A program made the translations under genes and the position numbers. A stretch of 64,000 nucleotides of DNA. Origin: Nitrososphaeraceae archaeon. GTDB taxonomy: Archaea; Thermoproteota; Nitrososphaeria; Nitrososphaerales; Nitrososphaeraceae. Location of the stretch: contig WHTU01000006.1 of the NCBI GenBank assembly GCA_009377575.1, positions 1-64,000 on the forward strand, written 5' to 3'. The notes under the pieces are model-generated. The model was not told the origin of the DNA. It did not search any database and saw only the letters and a program-made list of their open reading frames with translations. Every line of letters starts with the position of its first letter. Position 1 is the first letter of the stretch. This document shows, piece after piece, positions 21,255 through 36,475 of the stretch.

Positions 21255-21441
21255 GATGTGCTCATTATTAGGACTTTATTTTAAGGTATATCGTACATCT
21301 AGTCCTAAATTTGCAGGGAAAGCCGGTAACGAGTGACCACTCTTTAACGATGACTGGAATAACCCTAATGTTTTTATTTTCGATCACTTCGCAATCTTAT
21401 TGGACAAGAATTGGCGCGTTGCTCGGAGATTGGGGTTTAAT

Positions 21442-23082
21442 ATGACACTAAAAATGCGGTATTTAGACCTCAAGACAAAGATCCGAGCTGTCAGGATGCT
21501 CGCAATAGAAGGGATCGCCGAAGCTGGTTCGGGTCATCCTGGGGCTTCGTTTTCGGCCGCCGAAATAATGGGCGCGCTTTACTTTAGGAAATTAGTACAT
21601 AATCAAAAAGATCCTTTCTGGAAGGGGAGAGACTATTTCATTAATTCTAAAGGTCATTCCGCACCTGGTTTTTATGCTACGTTAGCCGTATCCGGCTATT
21701 TCCCAGTCATGGAGATCAAATCTCTCCGGGGGTTTGGGTCTAGGCTACAAGGTCATCCAGTACGTTATTCTGAGGAGCAAAGCAAGTGGAGTGTACCTGG
21801 CATCGAGTATTCTGGAGGTTCAGAAGGGATAGGGCTATCCGTTTCTGTAGGTCTTGCGTTGGCTAACCGTCTGGATGGAAATGCAAATCATATATTTACT
21901 TTGATTGGAGATGGAGAATCAAATGAAGGTCAGGTTTGGGAAGCCGCAATGTCGGCGTCCAAATTTGGATTGGATAATTTGACTGCAATACTGGATCGGA
22001 ACAGGATTCAGCAAGATGGATTCACTGAAGACATAATGCCACTCGATCCTGTCCGTGACAAGTGGGTTGCTTTCAATTGGAACGTGATTGAAATAGATGG
22101 ACATAGGGTTGAGCAGGTGATAGATGCAGTTAACAAGTCGTTGGCAGTGAAGGACAAGCCTACGATCATTATAGCCAATACTATCAAAGGCTATGGCATC
22201 AAACATATGACTAATAATCCCCAGTGGCATGGCAAGGCTCCGCCTAGGAAGCAGACACCCATACTACTGGAAGAACTTGACTGCGAGTTTCTAATTGCTC
22301 CTTCCATCATAGCTGGGGGAAAGGAGAATTACGAGGAGAAGATAAGAATGGCCGAGAGGGGGGGAGCAGACATGATCCATTTGGATGTCATGGATGGACG
22401 ATTTGTTCCTAATCATACTTTTCTGGCAGACACTATCCATAAATTAAGAAAAATTACCTCGATGCCATTTGATGCACATCTGATGATAGAAAATCCCGCA
22501 ACTGTGGTCGATGAATACATATCAGCCCGGTGCGATATAATTACGGTCCACGCCGAGGCGTGTTCGCAATCCGAATTTGCAGAAATCAATAGGAAGCTTA
22601 TTTCAAACGGGATTAGTCCAGGGATCGCAATTAATCCGGACACGTCACTACCTGACTGGATATGGGATTACCTGAATTCGATAGACGTCATAAACATATT
22701 GTCAGTGAATCCGGGATTCCCCGGACAGAAATTTATACCGAAGGTGCTTCCAAAGATGATCAATGCAGTGAAGGAGCTCAGAGGAAATGGGTATAAAGGC
22801 TATGTTGAAGCGGATGGTGGAATAGATTCGATAACCCTCCCCCAGGTTTATGAGGCTGGAGCTAGAATTCTTGTTACAGGCAATGCGGTCTATGGGACTA
22901 CAGACATTCAAGGGGCGATACTGCAATTGAAGCACACAGCAAATGTAGTGTTAGAAAAAAAGCTTCTCGATTTATCGACTAGCATTGGGATACGGAATGA
23001 TTGGCTTAAGACACGTAAACATATATTGATTCCATTTGCAAACGAATTGGACATAGAGGAAGAAATTCATGCTCTTAAGTAG
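21442..23082 (+). CDS. fusion: transketolase N-terminal subunit + ribulose-phosphate 3-epimerase
   Basis: One continuous frame encodes two enzymes. In the longest reading (from TTG 21400) residues 20-285 are the thiamine-diphosphate-binding half of transketolase, with GSGHPGASFS, NSKGHSAPG and the ThDP motif GDGESNEGQVWEA (170-182). Residues 294-515 are a complete ribulose-phosphate 3-epimerase barrel: HLDVMDGRFVPN (327-338), DAHLMIENP, SVNPGFPGQKF and VEADGGID, with the expected His and Asp catalytic and metal ligands. About 40 further residues form a tail. The ATG at 21442 is preferred as start because residues before it are not part of the family. It overlaps the C-terminal transketolase subunit gene by 14 bp. 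Together they make xylulose 5-phosphate available and transfer its two-carbon unit. Confidence 0.92.
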   Translation: MTLKMRYLDLKTKIRAVRMLAIEGIAEAGSGHPGASFSAAEIMGALYFRKLVHNQKDPFWKGRDYFINSKGHSAPGFYATLAVSGYFPVMEIKSLRGFGSRLQGHPVRYSEEQSKWSVPGIEYSGGSEGIGLSVSVGLALANRLDGNANHIFTLIGDGESNEGQVWEAAMSASKFGLDNLTAILDRNRIQQDGFTEDIMPLDPVRDKWVAFNWNVIEIDGHRVEQVIDAVNKSLAVKDKPTIIIANTIKGYGIKHMTNNPQWHGKAPPRKQTPILLEELDCEFLIAPSIIAGGKENYEEKIRMAERGGADMIHLDVMDGRFVPNHTFLADTIHKLRKITSMPFDAHLMIENPATVVDEYISARCDIITVHAEACSQSEFAEINRKLISNGISPGIAINPDTSLPDWIWDYLNSIDVINILSVNPGFPGQKFIPKVLPKMINAVKELRGNGYKGYVEADGGIDSITLPQVYEAGARILVTGNAVYGTTDIQGAILQLKHTANVVLEKKLLDLSTSIGIRNDWLKTRKHILIPFANELDIEEEIHALK

Positions 23083-24775: not shown

Positions 24776-26398
24776 TCAGCTTTTCAGTAATCCAATTACT
24801 TTTTTTGGAATATCTTCTAATTTACTCACGGCCAGGCTCCTTTCGTATTCCAGGTATCTCAGATTTTGACCGATTGATATAGCTTCATCTAAATTTCTTC
24901 CCAAACCAAGAGCGACCATGTGAGTGCCAATTTTCCGAAAGGATAATACCATATGACGTACTGCATCTGTGTCAGAAGGTTCACCATCGGTTAGGGTGAA
25001 AAAGATTTCAGGTTTGAAAGACCTTACCATTGGTTCGAGCAAACCATAGATCTCCGCAAGGGGCGTTCCTCCACTTGCCCTTATCTGAGCCAGCCTCTTT
25101 GTACAAATTGAAGACCACCTGTAATTTGGCGGTTTTATTAACCAACATTTCACTTGTTTACCATCAGTACTAAAGGCATAAACAGCGAATCTTACGCCTA
25201 AGAAGGAAAGGGCTTCGCAAAGAGCGTTAGTTACTTGTTTGTATTTCAGTTCGACCTCCTGTATGCTACTGGAATGGTCAAGAAGTATCATTACTCTAGT
25301 CTTAATAGTAAGCTTCAAATCGACAATGAATGGTGTAGGTATAAATTCGATGAATGCTTCTGAATCGAACTCGTCTCCGAATCGATCATGTCTTTCAATC
25401 CAGCCTGTACGCCACTCTTTGAATTTTGCCTTTGTCTTGTGGATAAGGTTAGTGTCGTAAACTTCACTCTCGTTAACATCCAGCCGATGTGGGATGCTGA
25501 TTCCCATATTTTCCAAATTCTCGTACCCTTCATTCTCATGTCTCTTGCTCTCTCGAACTAATGTTTCATACTCAGGAAGTATATCTGTGCCATCGACTAT
25601 CGCGTCGACGCTCTTTTCAATATTCTTCTCTGCAGTTCGCCTCTTCCTGACTATCTTTTCAATCTGTCGAGATAATTCCGATTCACTCATAGAAATTCCA
25701 AACCTCGAACGTATGGTTGAAAAAGGGATTAAGACCAAGGGATCGACTTGCAAGATCTTTATTATTCGGGGGACCTGTTCTTCTATCCACCTTGTCTGAT
25801 ACTGAGAGGCAAGGGCTTCCTGCACTACCGACGTAGCCAATTCGACCGCTTTGGCCACTTTATCATGTTCGGACGAGAAAAGCTCTCCTTTTATATACCC
25901 AGTCAAAAACAATTGGCCGAAGCCCTCGAGTAGCTTTTGGACACCGTACAAGGAATTTAGGAGAGGTCGATTTAGCCAGGATATTCCTTCGTCAAAGATG
26001 ATTTCATCCATCATCCCCTTCCAATCATCAAGGCCTATCGATTCAATTCGCTTCTTTTCGAGTGCATTAAACACGAACCCGAATGCATGATCGTAACTAA
26101 GTACTTTAGTCGAGTATTTTAATCTCATAGACTCGTACCACAAAGACACACGCCACTGGCGATACTTTTGAAATCGATTTCCAGCATATCCACGAAGATG
26201 AGGCAGTGCAATCTGGTTCTTATCAGGACTCGTCTTTGGATTTGCTTCTTCGGTGAATGTTACAAGCGATTTGGGTTTGTCAGACCATCTGCGTGACAGA
26301 AATGTAGCTATTTCTACTAGAACATCGTCCCTGACGGTTAAACCCTCTAAGGTAGAGCTGTGGGTCACGTTAAGTTTATTGTACTTGTATTCGGACAC
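24776..26398 (-). CDS. VWA-domain protein paired with a MoxR/CbbQ-type ATPase
   Basis: 540 residues. The first 350 are mostly helical, with several Trp/Tyr-rich segments and no known motif. The C-terminal von Willebrand A domain (about 365-540) has an intact metal-ion-dependent adhesion site: DHSSS (D374, S376, S378) and TLTDGEPSD near 472. This architecture, helical front and VWA at the end, is that of NorD/CbbO partners of NorQ/CbbQ ATPases, which remodel metalloenzymes or Rubisco. GTG start at 26398, 18 bp after the ATPase stop. No Rubisco or nitric oxide reductase gene is nearby, so the client is unknown. Confidence 0.85.
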   Translation of the reverse strand: MSEYKYNKLNVTHSSTLEGLTVRDDVLVEIATFLSRRWSDKPKSLVTFTEEANPKTSPDKNQIALPHLRGYAGNRFQKYRQWRVSLWYESMRLKYSTKVLSYDHAFGFVFNALEKKRIESIGLDDWKGMMDEIIFDEGISWLNRPLLNSLYGVQKLLEGFGQLFLTGYIKGELFSSEHDKVAKAVELATSVVQEALASQYQTRWIEEQVPRIIKILQVDPLVLIPFSTIRSRFGISMSESELSRQIEKIVRKRRTAEKNIEKSVDAIVDGTDILPEYETLVRESKRHENEGYENLENMGISIPHRLDVNESEVYDTNLIHKTKAKFKEWRTGWIERHDRFGDEFDSEAFIEFIPTPFIVDLKLTIKTRVMILLDHSSSIQEVELKYKQVTNALCEALSFLGVRFAVYAFSTDGKQVKCWLIKPPNYRWSSICTKRLAQIRASGGTPLAEIYGLLEPMVRSFKPEIFFTLTDGEPSDTDAVRHMVLSFRKIGTHMVALGLGRNLDEAISIGQNLRYLEYERSLAVSKLEDIPKKVIGLLKS

Positions 26399-26416
26399 AA
26401 CTAATCAAAAACCTAT

Positions 26417-27226
26417 CTAGTTTCCAAACATAGAGGTAATCATATCCATTACCTTTCGATACTCTACATCGCCCCATTGACCGTAGACATTTGCAAAGAC
26501 TAATTGTGCTGCATACTTCGCTTCACTTCCCGATTTTATAAGTTTGGAGAAGGCAATAGTCTCCCTCATACTAGGGCTATAGTAAAGCTCCTCAACAGCG
26601 GCAGCCTCACGAAGCTTGTTGGCAAGTTTGACACCGATGCTCACGGATGCCAACGCAGAGTCCTCTATCGAAGTATGTCTTCTTATTATATCTACTTCTA
26701 CTTCTTCTGGAGGGTATTCCAACCTGAGACGAACAGGAAATCTGCTGAGTAATTGCGGGGGAAGTTCCTTGGTTCCTACGTGGGATAACGGGTTGATTGT
26801 GGCGATAACGGTCCACCCTTTGGATGCAGTGATTGTTTGACCTTCGGATTCCTTTAACACGACTTGCCTCCTATCATCTAGAGCCTCATCCAGTCGCAAA
26901 AGCACGTCTGCCTCAGCAGCGTTCAGCTCGTCGAGGTACAGCAGTCCTCCAAGCTTCATGGATTCCACCAGAATTCCATCTACAAATCCCACCTCTCCAT
27001 TTTCAAGAGTCTTAGTTCCTACGAGATGGGACTCTCTAGTTCTAAGGCTAAAATTAACGGGATATAATGTTCTCCCAATCTCTGCGCCAAATGCTTTCAC
27101 TAATGTCGTCTTGCCAGTTCCTTTCGGTCCAATAATCATGGCAAATAGTCCAATATCATAGGCTTTTCTTAGAACGGGCAATGCGCCATTCCAATCTAAA
27201 TACAGAGGTGATGATGGTAGGCTCAA
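26417..27226 (-). CDS. MoxR/CbbQ-like AAA+ ATPase
   Basis: 269-residue AAA+ ATPase. Walker A GPKGTGKTT (33-41), Walker B LLYLDELN (D99, E100), sensor 1 in VIATINPLSHVG and the arginine-finger region ELPPQLLSRFPVRL. Compact size and the DELNAAEADVLLRLDEALDDRR stretch fit the CbbQ/NirQ/NorQ/GvpN branch. Such hexamers act with a VWA partner to insert cofactors or reactivate enzymes (family knowledge). The start is TTG at 27226; TATA-like sequences on the minus strand at 27264-27280 suggest it has its own promoter with the downstream VWA gene. Confidence 0.88.
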   Translation of the reverse strand: MSLPSSPLYLDWNGALPVLRKAYDIGLFAMIIGPKGTGKTTLVKAFGAEIGRTLYPVNFSLRTRESHLVGTKTLENGEVGFVDGILVESMKLGGLLYLDELNAAEADVLLRLDEALDDRRQVVLKESEGQTITASKGWTVIATINPLSHVGTKELPPQLLSRFPVRLRLEYPPEEVEVDIIRRHTSIEDSALASVSIGVKLANKLREAAAVEELYYSPSMRETIAFSKLIKSGSEAKYAAQLVFANVYGQWGDVEYRKVMDMITSMFGN

Positions 27227-27263
27227 TGATAAACACTGATAACTTTGATTCTGATTTGTAGGC

Positions 27264-27280
27264 TTAAAAAGGTATATAAC
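27264..27280 (-). promoter_or_regulatory. TATA-like promoter of the second AAA+/VWA pair
   Basis: Minus-strand TTATATACC followed by TTTTTAAG lies 38-54 bp before the TTG of the MoxR-like gene, inside the 65-bp gap after the first VWA gene. Suggests that the two pairs can be transcribed separately. Confidence 0.4.
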
Positions 27281-27291
27281 AACTTGCGAAG

Positions 27292-28668
27292 TTAGGCACG
27301 CAGAATAGCCCGCTTGTTCCTTATGAAGTCACTAAGTAGGGCCGCCTCCAAAGCCTCAGGACTCGCATAATAAGATCTTCCCTTCACTCTTCTTTCCATT
27401 TCGTTAACAAAACCTAGTAACGAATCCTCTTCACTAATCATTAGAGTGTCGATGTATATCCCTTTCTTAAGGCACTTCTCTGCCTCAATAATAGTTTGCT
27501 CAGCAATGTAGCTATCGACCTGCCTGTAGCGATAACACAGATACACTAGATTTCCAGCTGAAACATCAAGTCTCAAATCATATTCAGCCCGAACGCTATC
27601 CAAGCTCAAAGCATCAGGTTTGTAAAAATGCGAGTATGGCCTGATTTTCAAGATTTTTTCTTGTTGCTTCACGTCATCCATAAAGCAAGCGCTGGGGTGA
27701 CCATCTGTCACGAGAATAATCCGCTTGTTTGCTGAACCGTCATTAAGCAATATTCTCGTTGATAGCCTAAAGGCTGCTTGATAGTTGGTGTAATGCAAGA
27801 AATCCGAGCCGGCATCAAAAGTCTTTAGATATGGTATATCGGAAATTTTCACACGGGACGCGAGCGAGCCGAAGCCCACGATGTAAACAGAATCATTTGG
27901 AAAGAATTTTTTGTTAAGCATTACCAGGCTCCACAGAGCCTTCTTTGCTGCTTCAATCCGACTCAAATCCCCAAACATTCTAGAGTATTTCATAGTCGAG
28001 CTCAAGTCGATGCAATATACCACGCTGGCTCGAACATCTTGCAAGGTTTCATATTCTTCCAAATCTTCCGTTTTCATTTGCACTGGAATCTCTATTCTGC
28101 CAAACTCCTTTTGCACTCTGAGAACGGAATTAAGTAGCGATAATGGTATATTGACCAGCCGTATATCGTTTCCATCTTCATATTTACGAGTGGTATCTAG
28201 TATGACAGATCCAGTGCCTAGTGTTTTTGTGCCATGCCCCCCTGCTTCTCCGAGCTTCAGCGCCTTCATTACGTCATCAAGGATCATATTGCCAATCCTA
28301 TAAAATCCTCTAGAAGTGAGCCACTTCTCATCATTTTTTAAATAGCCTTCATGAAGAAGCATTCGAAGGATGGGAGAAGGGAACCTCAGAGCGCGGGCGT
28401 TCTCTTCCTCTCTGCTATTGTTATTTGTATCTTGCCTATGTGTGGAATCCTCGCCGATACTCTCTTGCTCTAAAAGATTCTTTATTATTCGATCTAATTC
28501 TTGAAGGTTGGGTCTATTTTCCCGTAGTGCTTCTCTTCCAACTATACTCAACAAGAGATCGATACCTGGTTTAGGCGAACTTCCAAAATTTTTGGAAAAT
28601 TTGGATTTTCTAGATTCATCTCTAGAATAGGCGAGCTGAAAAAGGTAACTTTTTTCAGGATTATTCAT
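27292..28668 (-). CDS. VWA-domain protein paired with a Mg-chelatase-like AAA+ ATPase
   Basis: About 458 residues. The N-terminal part is charged and Asn/Glu-rich, with a winged-helix-like stretch (LRMLLHEGYLKND, then LTSRGFYRIG). The VWA domain starts near residue 212: YCIDLSSTMKYS has the DxSxT metal site, and LVTDGHPSACF supplies the second Asp. A longer frame opens at 28725, but that start lies deep inside the upstream ATPase gene; the ATG at 28668 overlaps its stop by 8 bp (ATGAATAA) and is preferred. Resembles BchD/ChlD-type partners. It differs from the other VWA protein in architecture, so the two are not a recent duplication. Confidence 0.85.
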   Translation of the reverse strand: MNNPEKSYLFQLAYSRDESRKSKFSKNFGSSPKPGIDLLLSIVGREALRENRPNLQELDRIIKNLLEQESIGEDSTHRQDTNNNSREEENARALRFPSPILRMLLHEGYLKNDEKWLTSRGFYRIGNMILDDVMKALKLGEAGGHGTKTLGTGSVILDTTRKYEDGNDIRLVNIPLSLLNSVLRVQKEFGRIEIPVQMKTEDLEEYETLQDVRASVVYCIDLSSTMKYSRMFGDLSRIEAAKKALWSLVMLNKKFFPNDSVYIVGFGSLASRVKISDIPYLKTFDAGSDFLHYTNYQAAFRLSTRILLNDGSANKRIILVTDGHPSACFMDDVKQQEKILKIRPYSHFYKPDALSLDSVRAEYDLRLDVSAGNLVYLCYRYRQVDSYIAEQTIIEAEKCLKKGIYIDTLMISEEDSLLGFVNEMERRVKGRSYYASPEALEAALLSDFIRNKRAILRA

Positions 28669-30259
28669 TTGAATCTTGTAATCCATATTCACTTTGGCTC
28701 TTCTTTTCGAGTACAGCCGGTTCAATCCATGTTAATCCTTCTAGTACTAGTTCAGTAACCGAGGCCATGAGTTCTCCATCCAATTTAGGGGGAATCGAAA
28801 TGAAATGGACGTTTATGTCACGTCTACTTAGCTCTTCTACCAACTCTTGCTGCTCCTTTAATATCCGATCGACAATCTTGATTACTATTTGCTCTAGATG
28901 TGATGACTTTCTAAGTTGAACTTGATAGTCAAGCGCTGAAGAGGGATCAATACCTAACATTTTTTGTGACACGAGAAATCTGTTGTTTTCCGAAAAATCC
29001 CTACGCACGAGTTGAAGTTCATTTAAATCAATGGAATCCAAATACGCCACTGAAACCTTTTTCAATACCTCATCGATAAGCTTCCTTAACAGCTTCGATC
29101 TCGATTCAAAGTTGTCGTCTATTTCGGAAAGTTCAAACTTTACGGCTTGATATATGCTGTCAAAATCACAAAACCTAGGGACACTAATCACCGCATTGAA
29201 AATTGATCTGCATCTTTCCGATTCACTTATCAGTAACTCCATCGAGTGCACGCCCATCCTAACGCTTACCCCTTTCTCTTGATTTATCTCATCTCTAGAT
29301 CTCGCAAGTTGCACTATTGAAGCTACTGTTCTGAGAATAAAAACTGGTACAAAAGCCTGTGATGAAGTTAATCCCCTTGTCTCCTGTGATATAATCATGA
29401 TCTCGTCTTCCAACCTAACCGGATAATGTGTCTTAATATGACTTCTTAGACGATCGGACAGAGGTTCAATAATTCTTCCCGAATGGGTATAATCAGTCGG
29501 GTTAGCTGTTGCAAAAATGCTAACGTCAGGTCTAAACGTAATCGGGTACGATCCTGTAGTGAATTTTCCTTCCTGCAGTACGCTAAGTAGCGCTACCTGT
29601 TTTCTTGGATCGAGTACTGGTAGCTCATCTATGCACAACATTCCGTGGTTTGCTTGAAGAAGATAACCCGGGGTGTATGATTCGATGTCGTAAATTTCAA
29701 TACCCTTCTTCGCGATCTTCATCGCATCTATTTGACCAACTAAATCTTTAACAGAGACATCAGGAGTGGCTAGAAAATATCGATAGCGATCAAATCCCTC
29801 CACCCATTTTATGCGCGTATCTAACTTGTTATTTCTTATTGAATTCTCGCATGCAGTTGAGACAGTAAAATCAGGACTCGTTCTTTGGATCTCTTCATCG
29901 GATAGCATTGCTGCAAGACTCTCTTCTGCGATACTTGTTGGAATATCGTGCATTAGCGAGCCTTCAACAACCGGGATAGGAGAAAGTAGGTGTTTTGCAA
30001 CACATTCGGCAATTCGAGTCTTAGCTTGGCCAATTTCCCCAATGAGCAGGATGTCGTGTCCAGCTAATATAGCACGAATCAATGCCGGGAGAACGTCTAA
30101 TTCGTAACCAATTATCCCTGGAAAAGGTGTAATGCCACTCCTTAATCTTGCAACAAGATTTCGCCTTATTTGGTCCTGAACAGAAACAAATTTGTAATTG
30201 ATTTCTAACAGATCTTTCAACTTGGTTAACTGCTTAAAGTTATCGGGTAATCCAGCCAT
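28661..30259 (-). CDS. Mg-chelatase ChlI-like AAA+ ATPase
   Basis: About 532 residues (564 if read from TTG 30355). N-terminal AAA+ core with Walker A GEIGQAKT (about 74-81 from the ATG), Walker B MLCIDELPVLD (D211, E212), sensor 1 in FATANPTDYTHSGRI and the arginine finger in PLSDRLRSHI. The GxxGQAKTR Walker A and the helix-2 insertion place it near the ChlI/BchI and sigma-54-activator-like clade. A long helical C-terminus (about 300-532) lacks known motifs. A TATA box on the minus strand at 30361-30370 would put the transcript start near 30340, inside the longer frame, favouring the ATG at 30259. Translationally coupled to the next VWA gene. Confidence 0.86.
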   Translation of the reverse strand: MAGLPDNFKQLTKLKDLLEINYKFVSVQDQIRRNLVARLRSGITPFPGIIGYELDVLPALIRAILAGHDILLIGEIGQAKTRIAECVAKHLLSPIPVVEGSLMHDIPTSIAEESLAAMLSDEEIQRTSPDFTVSTACENSIRNNKLDTRIKWVEGFDRYRYFLATPDVSVKDLVGQIDAMKIAKKGIEIYDIESYTPGYLLQANHGMLCIDELPVLDPRKQVALLSVLQEGKFTTGSYPITFRPDVSIFATANPTDYTHSGRIIEPLSDRLRSHIKTHYPVRLEDEIMIISQETRGLTSSQAFVPVFILRTVASIVQLARSRDEINQEKGVSVRMGVHSMELLISESERCRSIFNAVISVPRFCDFDSIYQAVKFELSEIDDNFESRSKLLRKLIDEVLKKVSVAYLDSIDLNELQLVRRDFSENNRFLVSQKMLGIDPSSALDYQVQLRKSSHLEQIVIKIVDRILKEQQELVEELSRRDINVHFISIPPKLDGELMASVTELVLEGLTWIEPAVLEKKSQSEYGLQDSNE

Positions 30260-30360
30260 GATCTCACTGTAATTAGGCTCTGAAGTGTATGAACGATGGA
30301 CAAGTTTTCTTGTTTTCTCGTGAGGGTCCAATTCGATCTGCGAAATCAGATACAATTGGG

Positions 30361-35026: not shown

Positions 35027-36475
35027 ATGTCCTCCGTTGATAGAGATTACGATATAATAGTTGCTGGTGGGGGGTTGTCTGGCATGATAGCTGCGTGCTC
35101 GGCTGCCCACTACTCAACACAGACGCTAAGAATCTTGGTGGTAGACAGAAATGATTTAGAATCTTTGGGTAGAAAAACACTGACAGGTTGGATTTGTGGT
35201 GACGCAGTCGGTAAGAAGCCTGTCGACTACATGAATAAGAATATAAATATCAGTTGGCAGTATCCTGAAATTGAGCATCCAGTAAGAGGAGTTGTTGCTT
35301 ATTCACCCGATCATGAAACGAAAATCTCCTTTGATGGAGAGGGATATATTTTAAACAGAAAGTTGCTGCCGCAGAAGCAAGCCAGCGACGCCGTATCAAG
35401 AGGAGTTGATCTGAGAGGGAACATTGTGCTCAGAAATCTTGTTACTGATGGGAATATGGTAATTGGAGTTGAAGGCGACGACCTGAAAGAGAGAGTCCCG
35501 TTCAGGAAGACCTCTTCAGTGGTTATCGATTGTACAGGAGTGACCTCGGTCCTGAGAACCAACTTGGCGGTTAATTCCTACATTCAGAGAAAGATAGATA
35601 GAGATGATTTAGAGGCAACGGGCAGATACATATGTACATTTGATGTTGGCATCGATGACAAAACATATTTTGACCCAGAATATTGCATAATCCATTTAGA
35701 CCAAGACATTGCTCCTGGTGGTTATGCATGGGTATTCCCTAAGGGAAGTTCAAAGGCAAATATCGGCTTGGGAGTCCAGCAAAAAGCATTAGATCAAAGA
35801 AATAAGAAAAGCGAGAATAAAGTCAATCTCAAGGCTTTGATAGACAATTATTTGAATTCAAATCCCGCCGTTCACAACCCTAGATTATCAGATGATGATC
35901 ATGATAGCGGGAATTCGTGGGGCACCTGGCAGGTCTCAGTGCGCAGACAGAATGATTGCATGGTGGCAAGTGGGTATCTGCTGGTAGGAGATTCCGCTTG
36001 GATGCCAAAACCCTTAGATGCGGGGGGAATCGGTCCTGCGATTATCGCAGCTACTCTAGCAGGAAAACATGCTGTGAATGCCATACAACGAGGAGATGTA
36101 TCTGAGGCTGGGCTATGGGAGTATAATAAGGACTTTATGGATGAATACGGGTACAAGACGGCTGGCCTTGAGGTGTTTAGACGTATGTTACAAGGGCTTT
36201 CAAATGATCAGATTAATTATGGGATGAAGCATTTTATTTCAAGGTTCGATGTAGAGAAAATAACTAACGGCGAACATCCAGAGTTTGGACTCGTCGGTAA
36301 AATGGGAATCGTGTTTGCAAGCGTGATGAACCAAAAGCTGGCGTCTTCTTTGAAGAGGACAGCAGAAGTAAATGCGTTGCTTGTCAAACATTATAATGAC
36401 TATCCCAGTAATCCAGACGGCTTTACCGAGTGGCAAAATGACCTGATGAGGATCATGGAAAATCCGCTAAAATGA
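35027..36475 (+). CDS. FAD-dependent geranylgeranyl reductase-family protein
   Basis: 482 residues. N-terminal dinucleotide-binding motif DIIVAGGGLSGMIAA with VVDRN ending the second strand, a TGWICGDAVG loop, the superfamily's YAWVFPKGSSKANIGLG motif (Y-x-W-x-F-P, about 240-258), and the FAD-binding DSAWMPKPLDAGGIGPA near 330. Geranylgeranyl reductases saturate the isoprenoid chains of archaeal lipids or of quinones. A second, shorter member lies at 39447-40646, so the two probably have different substrates, for example lipids and menaquinone (inference). Starts ATG 72 bp after glmS. Confidence 0.88.
   Translation: MSSVDRDYDIIVAGGGLSGMIAACSAAHYSTQTLRILVVDRNDLESLGRKTLTGWICGDAVGKKPVDYMNKNINISWQYPEIEHPVRGVVAYSPDHETKISFDGEGYILNRKLLPQKQASDAVSRGVDLRGNIVLRNLVTDGNMVIGVEGDDLKERVPFRKTSSVVIDCTGVTSVLRTNLAVNSYIQRKIDRDDLEATGRYICTFDVGIDDKTYFDPEYCIIHLDQDIAPGGYAWVFPKGSSKANIGLGVQQKALDQRNKKSENKVNLKALIDNYLNSNPAVHNPRLSDDDHDSGNSWGTWQVSVRRQNDCMVASGYLLVGDSAWMPKPLDAGGIGPAIIAATLAGKHAVNAIQRGDVSEAGLWEYNKDFMDEYGYKTAGLEVFRRMLQGLSNDQINYGMKHFISRFDVEKITNGEHPEFGLVGKMGIVFASVMNQKLASSLKRTAEVNALLVKHYNDYPSNPDGFTEWQNDLMRIMENPLK

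Follow-up and report, generated by a model that had tools for sequence, protein, structure and literature searches.

Two independent AAA+ ATPase/VWA gene pairs of ammonia-oxidising archaea, one related in sequence to NorQ/NorD and neither a known chelatase

The 64,000-nucleotide stretch of Nitrososphaeraceae DNA analysed here (contig WHTU01000006.1, positions 1 to 64,000; hereafter the window) carries four real, intact and conserved genes that form two independent AAA+ ATPase/VWA systems and not one. Both pairs keep intact motifs, each is obligate in joining its ATPase to its own VWA partner, and each has its own family, distribution and synteny. Pair 1 (AAA1 and VWA1) and pair 2 (MoxR2 and VWA2) would act, with a probability that we put at about 0.7, as two independent machines for VWA-mediated, ATP-driven remodelling of client proteins.

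Archaeal ammonia oxidisers (AOA) dominate many soils and the ocean, and we know of no established route by which they assemble AMO and the further copper enzymes of this pathway; the literature search found no description of one. A NorQ/NorD-type machine that is close to a genomic signature of AOA and narrowly distributed elsewhere is a concrete candidate for this assembly step. The discriminating cases are two genomes that appear to have lost it, G047 and G019, and an AMO-free carrier, Candidatus Methanomethylicota. A literature search outside subscription papers found neither pair described in AOA, the one MoxR/VWA pair on record being linked to pili, and the text on the copper-limitation transcriptome of N. 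viennensis names no MoxR/VWA pair. What is new is pair 2 as a variant of the MoxR/VWA type and pair 1 as a member of an existing, uncharacterised kind. The analysis also sets pair 1 apart as an unrelated system and removes its interpretation as a chelatase.

Organization and conservation of the locus

A check of the open reading frames in the window returns four intact ORFs on the minus strand at the coordinates that an earlier note on this DNA had given (Table 1), and the ORFs and their conserved motifs together confirm its observation of two distinct, intact AAA+/VWA pairs on the same strand. For AAA1, a TTG codon at 30331 matches the N-termini of orthologues better than the start of the ORF as read. 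VWA1 has start candidates at 28668, 28686 and 28725, and the 8-bp overlap of AAA1 and VWA1 that had been described holds if VWA1 begins at the ATG at 28668. The TTATATA box between the pairs could give pair 2 a promoter of its own; across the whole window the same word occurs 15 times, about as often as the 14 expected by chance. The neighbours of the pairs in the window are transketolase/ribulose-phosphate 3-epimerase (RPE), transaldolase, rpS13, rpS4 and glmS, and no client gene is adjacent, as the earlier note had remarked.

Table 1. Features of the two AAA+/VWA pairs in the window
Feature	Coordinates	Strand	Description
AAA1	28661..30355	-	AAA+ ATPase resembling chelatases; the ORF encodes 564 aa
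VWA1	27292..28725	-	Helical N-terminal region, then C-terminal VWA domain
Inter-pair gap, 65 bp	27227..27291	-	TTATATA box at 27279-27273
MoxR2	26417..27226	-	NorQ/CbbQ/midasin-type AAA+ ATPase, 269 aa
VWA2	24776..26398	-	NorD-like partner, C-terminal VWA domain

In alignments of 26 orthologous sequences for pair 2 and 18 for pair 1, the catalytic and metal-site residues of both pairs are invariant or nearly so, and the pairs are therefore not chance ORFs. The Walker A and B motifs, sensor 1 and the arginines of MoxR2 are invariant in all 26 sequences, and among AOA the protein retains GPKGTGKT, LDE and ATINP as well as R162 and R221. VWA2 consists of an alpha-helical N-terminal domain, a finger segment at residues ~314-346 and a VWA domain with the MIDAS motif DHSSS..T..D, of which D374, S376, S378, T445 and D471 are retained in AOA orthologues. 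VWA1, with the MIDAS motif DLSST..T..TDG, likewise retains D240, S242, T244 and T340-D341. AAA1 keeps its Walker A motif, with G106, G109, K112 and T113 invariant, and also D243-E244. The motifs quoted in the earlier note are real and mostly invariant in AOA, with the exception of AAA1 position 107, where the glutamate of the window (E107) is usually Gln in orthologues.

Both ATPases match AAA+ families in Pfam and NCBIfam and both partners match VWA families in Pfam, with all four proteins far under every NCBIfam equivalog cut-off; the set is not an already named four-gene system. The VWA domain is C-terminal in both pairs (~233-476 in VWA1 and ~367-540 in VWA2), the AlphaFold model of VWA1 showing the fold from residue 233 to the end, and the ATPase gene precedes the VWA gene in both. 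The claim that the pairs differ in domain order is thus mistaken. The conclusion once drawn from it, that they are not a simple duplication, is nonetheless right for another reason, namely that sequence comparison places pair 1 and pair 2 in different families.

Pair 2 as a relative of NorQ and NorD

Pair 2 is related to NorQ/NorD of bacteria but has diverged from it. With the summed repeats of midasin set aside, the best match of MoxR2 among PDB sequences is NorQ, aligned over its full length (9qhd, E 4e-25), which bears out the MoxR/NorQ-like nature proposed for the pair in the earlier note. In a tblastn search of plasmids, a Labrenzia NorQ (31%, E 1e-34) ranks first for coverage and identity; it lies in a genuine norCBQDEF operon adjoining nitrite reductase, in the order cytochrome c, NorB-like subunit I, NorQ, VWA, NorE-like and NorF. 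Foldseek matches of VWA2 are headed by NorD VWA structures (E 7e-8 to 2e-7), followed by the human midasin MIDAS domain, and in sequence VWA2 resembles NorD weakly (E 2e-6 in a set of 12 proteins). The NorD finger, which reaches into the pore of NorQ and cannot be dispensed with when iron is inserted (PMC13036017), aligns in sequence with the conserved VWA2 segment KxFxxxRxGxxxxxxxxGDxxD, where model confidence is partly low.

The two systems have in common a small single-domain MoxR ATPase with a VWA gene directly downstream, an arrangement found in 26 of 26 sampled loci as adjacency of MoxR2 and VWA2, and a C-terminal VWA domain with a MIDAS and a finger ahead of its first strand. They differ in an ATPase identity of only ~31%, in the N-terminal part of the VWA protein and in the helix-2-insert motif of NorQ, GRxLL/IxxxxT, which is absent from MoxR2, where GTKT[LI] or a variant replaces GRYLL; because this ATPase-side motif is not conserved, pair 2 is not classified as NorQD. 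Furthermore, no nor genes lie beside any sampled AOA or Methanomethylicota copy. In a search of a named collection, of which the best 80 of 250 loci were considered, pair 2 is restricted to AOA and one Methanomethylicota lineage, and more distant carriers are possible.

By analogy, pair 2 very probably works like NorQD, which inserts FeB into NorB, a member of the heme-copper superfamily (PMC9976466). MoxR2 would assemble into an AAA+ ring and VWA2 would dock via its C-terminus with its finger pushed into the MoxR2 pore, ring and finger insertion both being modelled on the homologous NorQD. The metal site of VWA2 would then grip the client protein, and ATP hydrolysis would twist it, resulting in maturation or reactivation. 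Maturation could plausibly occur by metal insertion, again as in NorQD; a metal-free client is possible as well, because MoxR2 also resembles the AAA domains of midasin. Pair 1 would remodel a different client.

Family of pair 1

Homology assigns pair 1 to an uncharacterised bacterial pair of the Thermomicrobium/Actinomycetota type, of which it would represent an archaeal branch. AAA1 is 35% identical over 414 aa to TRD_RS11480 of Thermomicrobium roseum and VWA1 is 30% identical over 360 aa to TRD_RS11485, and the corresponding values for the adjacent Tsukamurella pair EL451_RS20575/RS20570 are 32% and 22%. The ATPase and VWA homologues are adjacent in these bacteria and arranged in the same order as in pair 1. 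Beyond the homologous cores, the N-terminus of AOA VWA1 is shorter and the neighbourhood is different, and in comparison with the Thermomicrobium homologue the archaeal VWA1 has an insert of ~60 aa in its VWA domain, the alignment reaching the last residues. The Tsukamurella pair adjoins purN-purH, the setting of mycobacterial Rv0958/Rv0959 also; this context and a common annotation make the two mycobacterial genes candidate members of the family. The fold matches of VWA1 are generic VWA domains, and weaker relatives of the AAA1 ATPase are present in members of the order that do not oxidise ammonia.

Distribution and inheritance

Among 151 genomes of the order to which the window belongs, amoA (PF12942) is present in 75, all within four families. 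The MoxR2 orthologue, defined by an E value below 1e-90, occurs in 70 genomes, comprising 69 of the 75 with amoA and one draft from a genus whose other sampled genomes carry amoA. The remaining 75 genomes lack it, their best match being a paralogue at ~33%. In two of the six amoA-positive genomes without MoxR2, the end of a contig carries VWA2 in one case and a fragment of it in the other, and two more are 67% and 87% complete. The other two are G047 (96% complete), with no trace of pair 2, and G019 (84% complete), with a VWA2 fragment containing four stops on a long contig; in these two the absence of pair 2 looks real.

A phylum-wide profile search finds MoxR2 orthologues beyond the order in just two genomes, both from a single family: Candidatus Methanomethylicota WYZ-LMO11 and Bin S31. 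In both, VWA2 adjoins MoxR2, with identities of ~28-32% for VWA2 and 60-65% for MoxR2, and neither amoA nor COX1 is present. The Methanomethylicota copies form one clade in the MoxR2 tree, in which saturated outgroup branches blur its placement relative to the AOA families.

AAA1 is present in all genomes of families f1, f2 (Nitrosocaldus-type) and f3 and in 10 of the 33 genomes of f9 (Nitrosopumilaceae-type). The other 23 Nitrosopumilaceae-type genomes have pair 2 and lack pair 1, and two AOA genomes have pair 1 but no intact pair 2; because each occurs without the other, the pairs are independent. Both are vertically inherited and have been in AOA since their common ancestor. The co-occurrence check suggested in the earlier note thus reveals pairs that are co-inherited yet separable.

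Gene neighbourhood

In 14 of 18 loci, spread over all four AOA families, pair 1 and rpS13-rpS4 point away from each other. Transaldolase/transketolase genes are next to pair 2 in most loci of f1 and near it in two f9 genomes (G402 and G422); in f2, transaldolase directly adjoins pair 1 and pair 2 is found elsewhere. The order found in the window, transketolase, transaldolase / pair 2 / pair 1 / rpS13-rpS4, is probably ancestral and would have been broken by separate relocations. As the back-to-back order has been broken repeatedly, the pairs do not need each other. In 30 of 33 Nitrosopumilaceae-type genomes, pair 2 shares a contig with amoA, at a distance of 9.6-34 kb and mostly ~10 kb, a linkage that is absent in the other AOA families.

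Candidate clients

For pair 2, maturation of an AOA metalloenzyme other than AMO, e.g., at the CuB site of the aa3 oxidase or in a carbon-fixation enzyme, is unlikely. It is consistent with the action of NorQD on NorB, since the aa3 oxidase belongs to the same superfamily, and with the presence of COX1 in 12 of 12 AOA tested, but G047 and G019 encode COX1 and no intact pair 2, and conversely G210 and G222 have pair 2 and lack COX1.

A role of pair 2 as a dedicated machine for AMO maturation, by copper insertion or complex assembly, is distinctly unlikely. MoxR2 is almost perfectly confined to amoA-positive genomes and the closest known system, NorQD, matures a membrane metalloenzyme; the AOA families are related, however, and the co-occurrence may therefore stem from one origin. 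The linkage to amoA is weak support for such a client, because it is confined to one family and the intervening genes are housekeeping ones (rpS15, DHH, serS, rpS3Ae and geranylgeranyl reductase). G047 and G019 also count against this client, as they carry amoA with no pair 2 or with a VWA2 pseudogene only, while the methanogen-related Methanomethylicota have pair 2 without amoA. A wider version, in which pair 2 would be dedicated to assembling, or inserting metal into, a signature copper enzyme of ammonia oxidisers, likeliest AMO, with the amoA-positive non-carriers using a substitute and the Methanomethylicota copy being re-used, is likewise quite improbable. The distribution of pair 2 hints at AMO or a further enzyme of ammonia oxidation, but there are exceptions both ways. 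Neither AMO nor heme-copper oxidase is a good fit as the only client of pair 2, and as obligate clients both are weakened by these counter-examples. The copper or iron enzyme that the earlier note found attractive as a client is possible in general terms, with these counter-examples against AMO and heme-copper oxidase.

Action of one or both pairs on ribosomes or translation complexes in the manner of midasin, or on a metal-free client, also has a low probability. Midasin (Rea1/MDN1) combines AAA domains of the MoxR2 clade with a C-terminal MIDAS/VWA domain, whose fold is matched by VWA2, and MoxR2 matches its AAA domains at ~50 bits at best. NorQ, at 81 bits, nevertheless exceeds any single midasin domain, and midasin is a giant fusion of six AAA domains. 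The position of pair 1 beside rpS13-rpS4, and of pair 2 near rpS3Ae, serS and rpS15 in one family, points in the same direction as the midasin likeness, but ribosomal gene neighbours are common for conserved archaeal blocks and pair 1 is dispensable in most Nitrosopumilaceae.

The reading of pair 1 as a Mg- or Co-chelatase I/D pair is extremely improbable: AAA1 is weakly similar to BchD/BchI and mycobacterial Rv0958 carries a magnesium chelatase annotation, but the CobN/ChlH catalytic subunit (PF02514) is found in 0 of 36 genomes, including 25 AOA, with five control genomes positive, and the AAA1 scores of 32.5 bits for BchD-ChlD and 19 for TIGR02442 fall far short of the respective cut-offs, 499.55 and 779.45. 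The closest relatives of pair 1 are the pair of Thermomicrobium and Actinomycetota. Since no sampled genome has CobN/ChlH, neither pair is a tetrapyrrole chelatase; the TIGR02442 matches are all below cut-off, and the reading is refuted for known chelatases, such that a new, unrelated catalytic subunit would be required. The remodelling of separate clients by two machines is the reading retained here.

Paralogous systems and neighbouring genes

Several other roles were considered and rejected. Regulation of type IV pili is the province of a different, paralogous MoxR/VWA pair of Thaumarchaeota (arCOG00441/arCOG02900; PMC4858521), which occurs in many of the genomes with pair 2. Its MoxR is just 31% identical and it adjoins pilin and T2SSF genes, and pair 2 lies outside the pilus locus. 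In AOA, a second MoxR/VWA pair matching these arCOGs is seen near pilin/T2SSF genes at L130:7519-10082 and L131:4142-6963. PADLOC gave merely marginal matches to generic AAA+ models, arguing against a defence system, and RavA is not among the sequence matches. An HExxH metallopeptidase in the N-terminal domain of VWA2 was also dismissed, as the motif occurs in one Methanomethylicota copy only, the second having HQxxH and the AOA copies no such motif.

A decayed VWA2 with four in-frame stops is found at L212:3663-4331 in an amoA-positive genome without MoxR2, where the loss of pair 2 is likely recent. In Methanomethylicota (L125:9534-12142 and L126:1706-4308), pair 2 has genes for thioredoxin and for an ArsP-type permease as neighbours, and downstream lies a radical SAM gene. 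The Nitrosopumilaceae-type loci L061-L073 and L094 share a conserved block that comes after the amo cluster, comprises genes for small membrane proteins, rpS15, DHH, serS, rpS3Ae and geranylgeranyl reductase, and ends in MoxR2-VWA2. A geranylgeranyl-reductase-like gene is present near pair 1 in the window (35027-36475), and its orthologue in the Nitrosopumilaceae-type family is the gene immediately upstream of MoxR2. At 21400-23082 of the window, a fusion joins the N-terminal half of transketolase to ribulose-phosphate 3-epimerase (matched by Pfam at 26-280 and 299-498), and at L082, a Nitrosocaldus-type locus, each half shows up as an ORF of its own.
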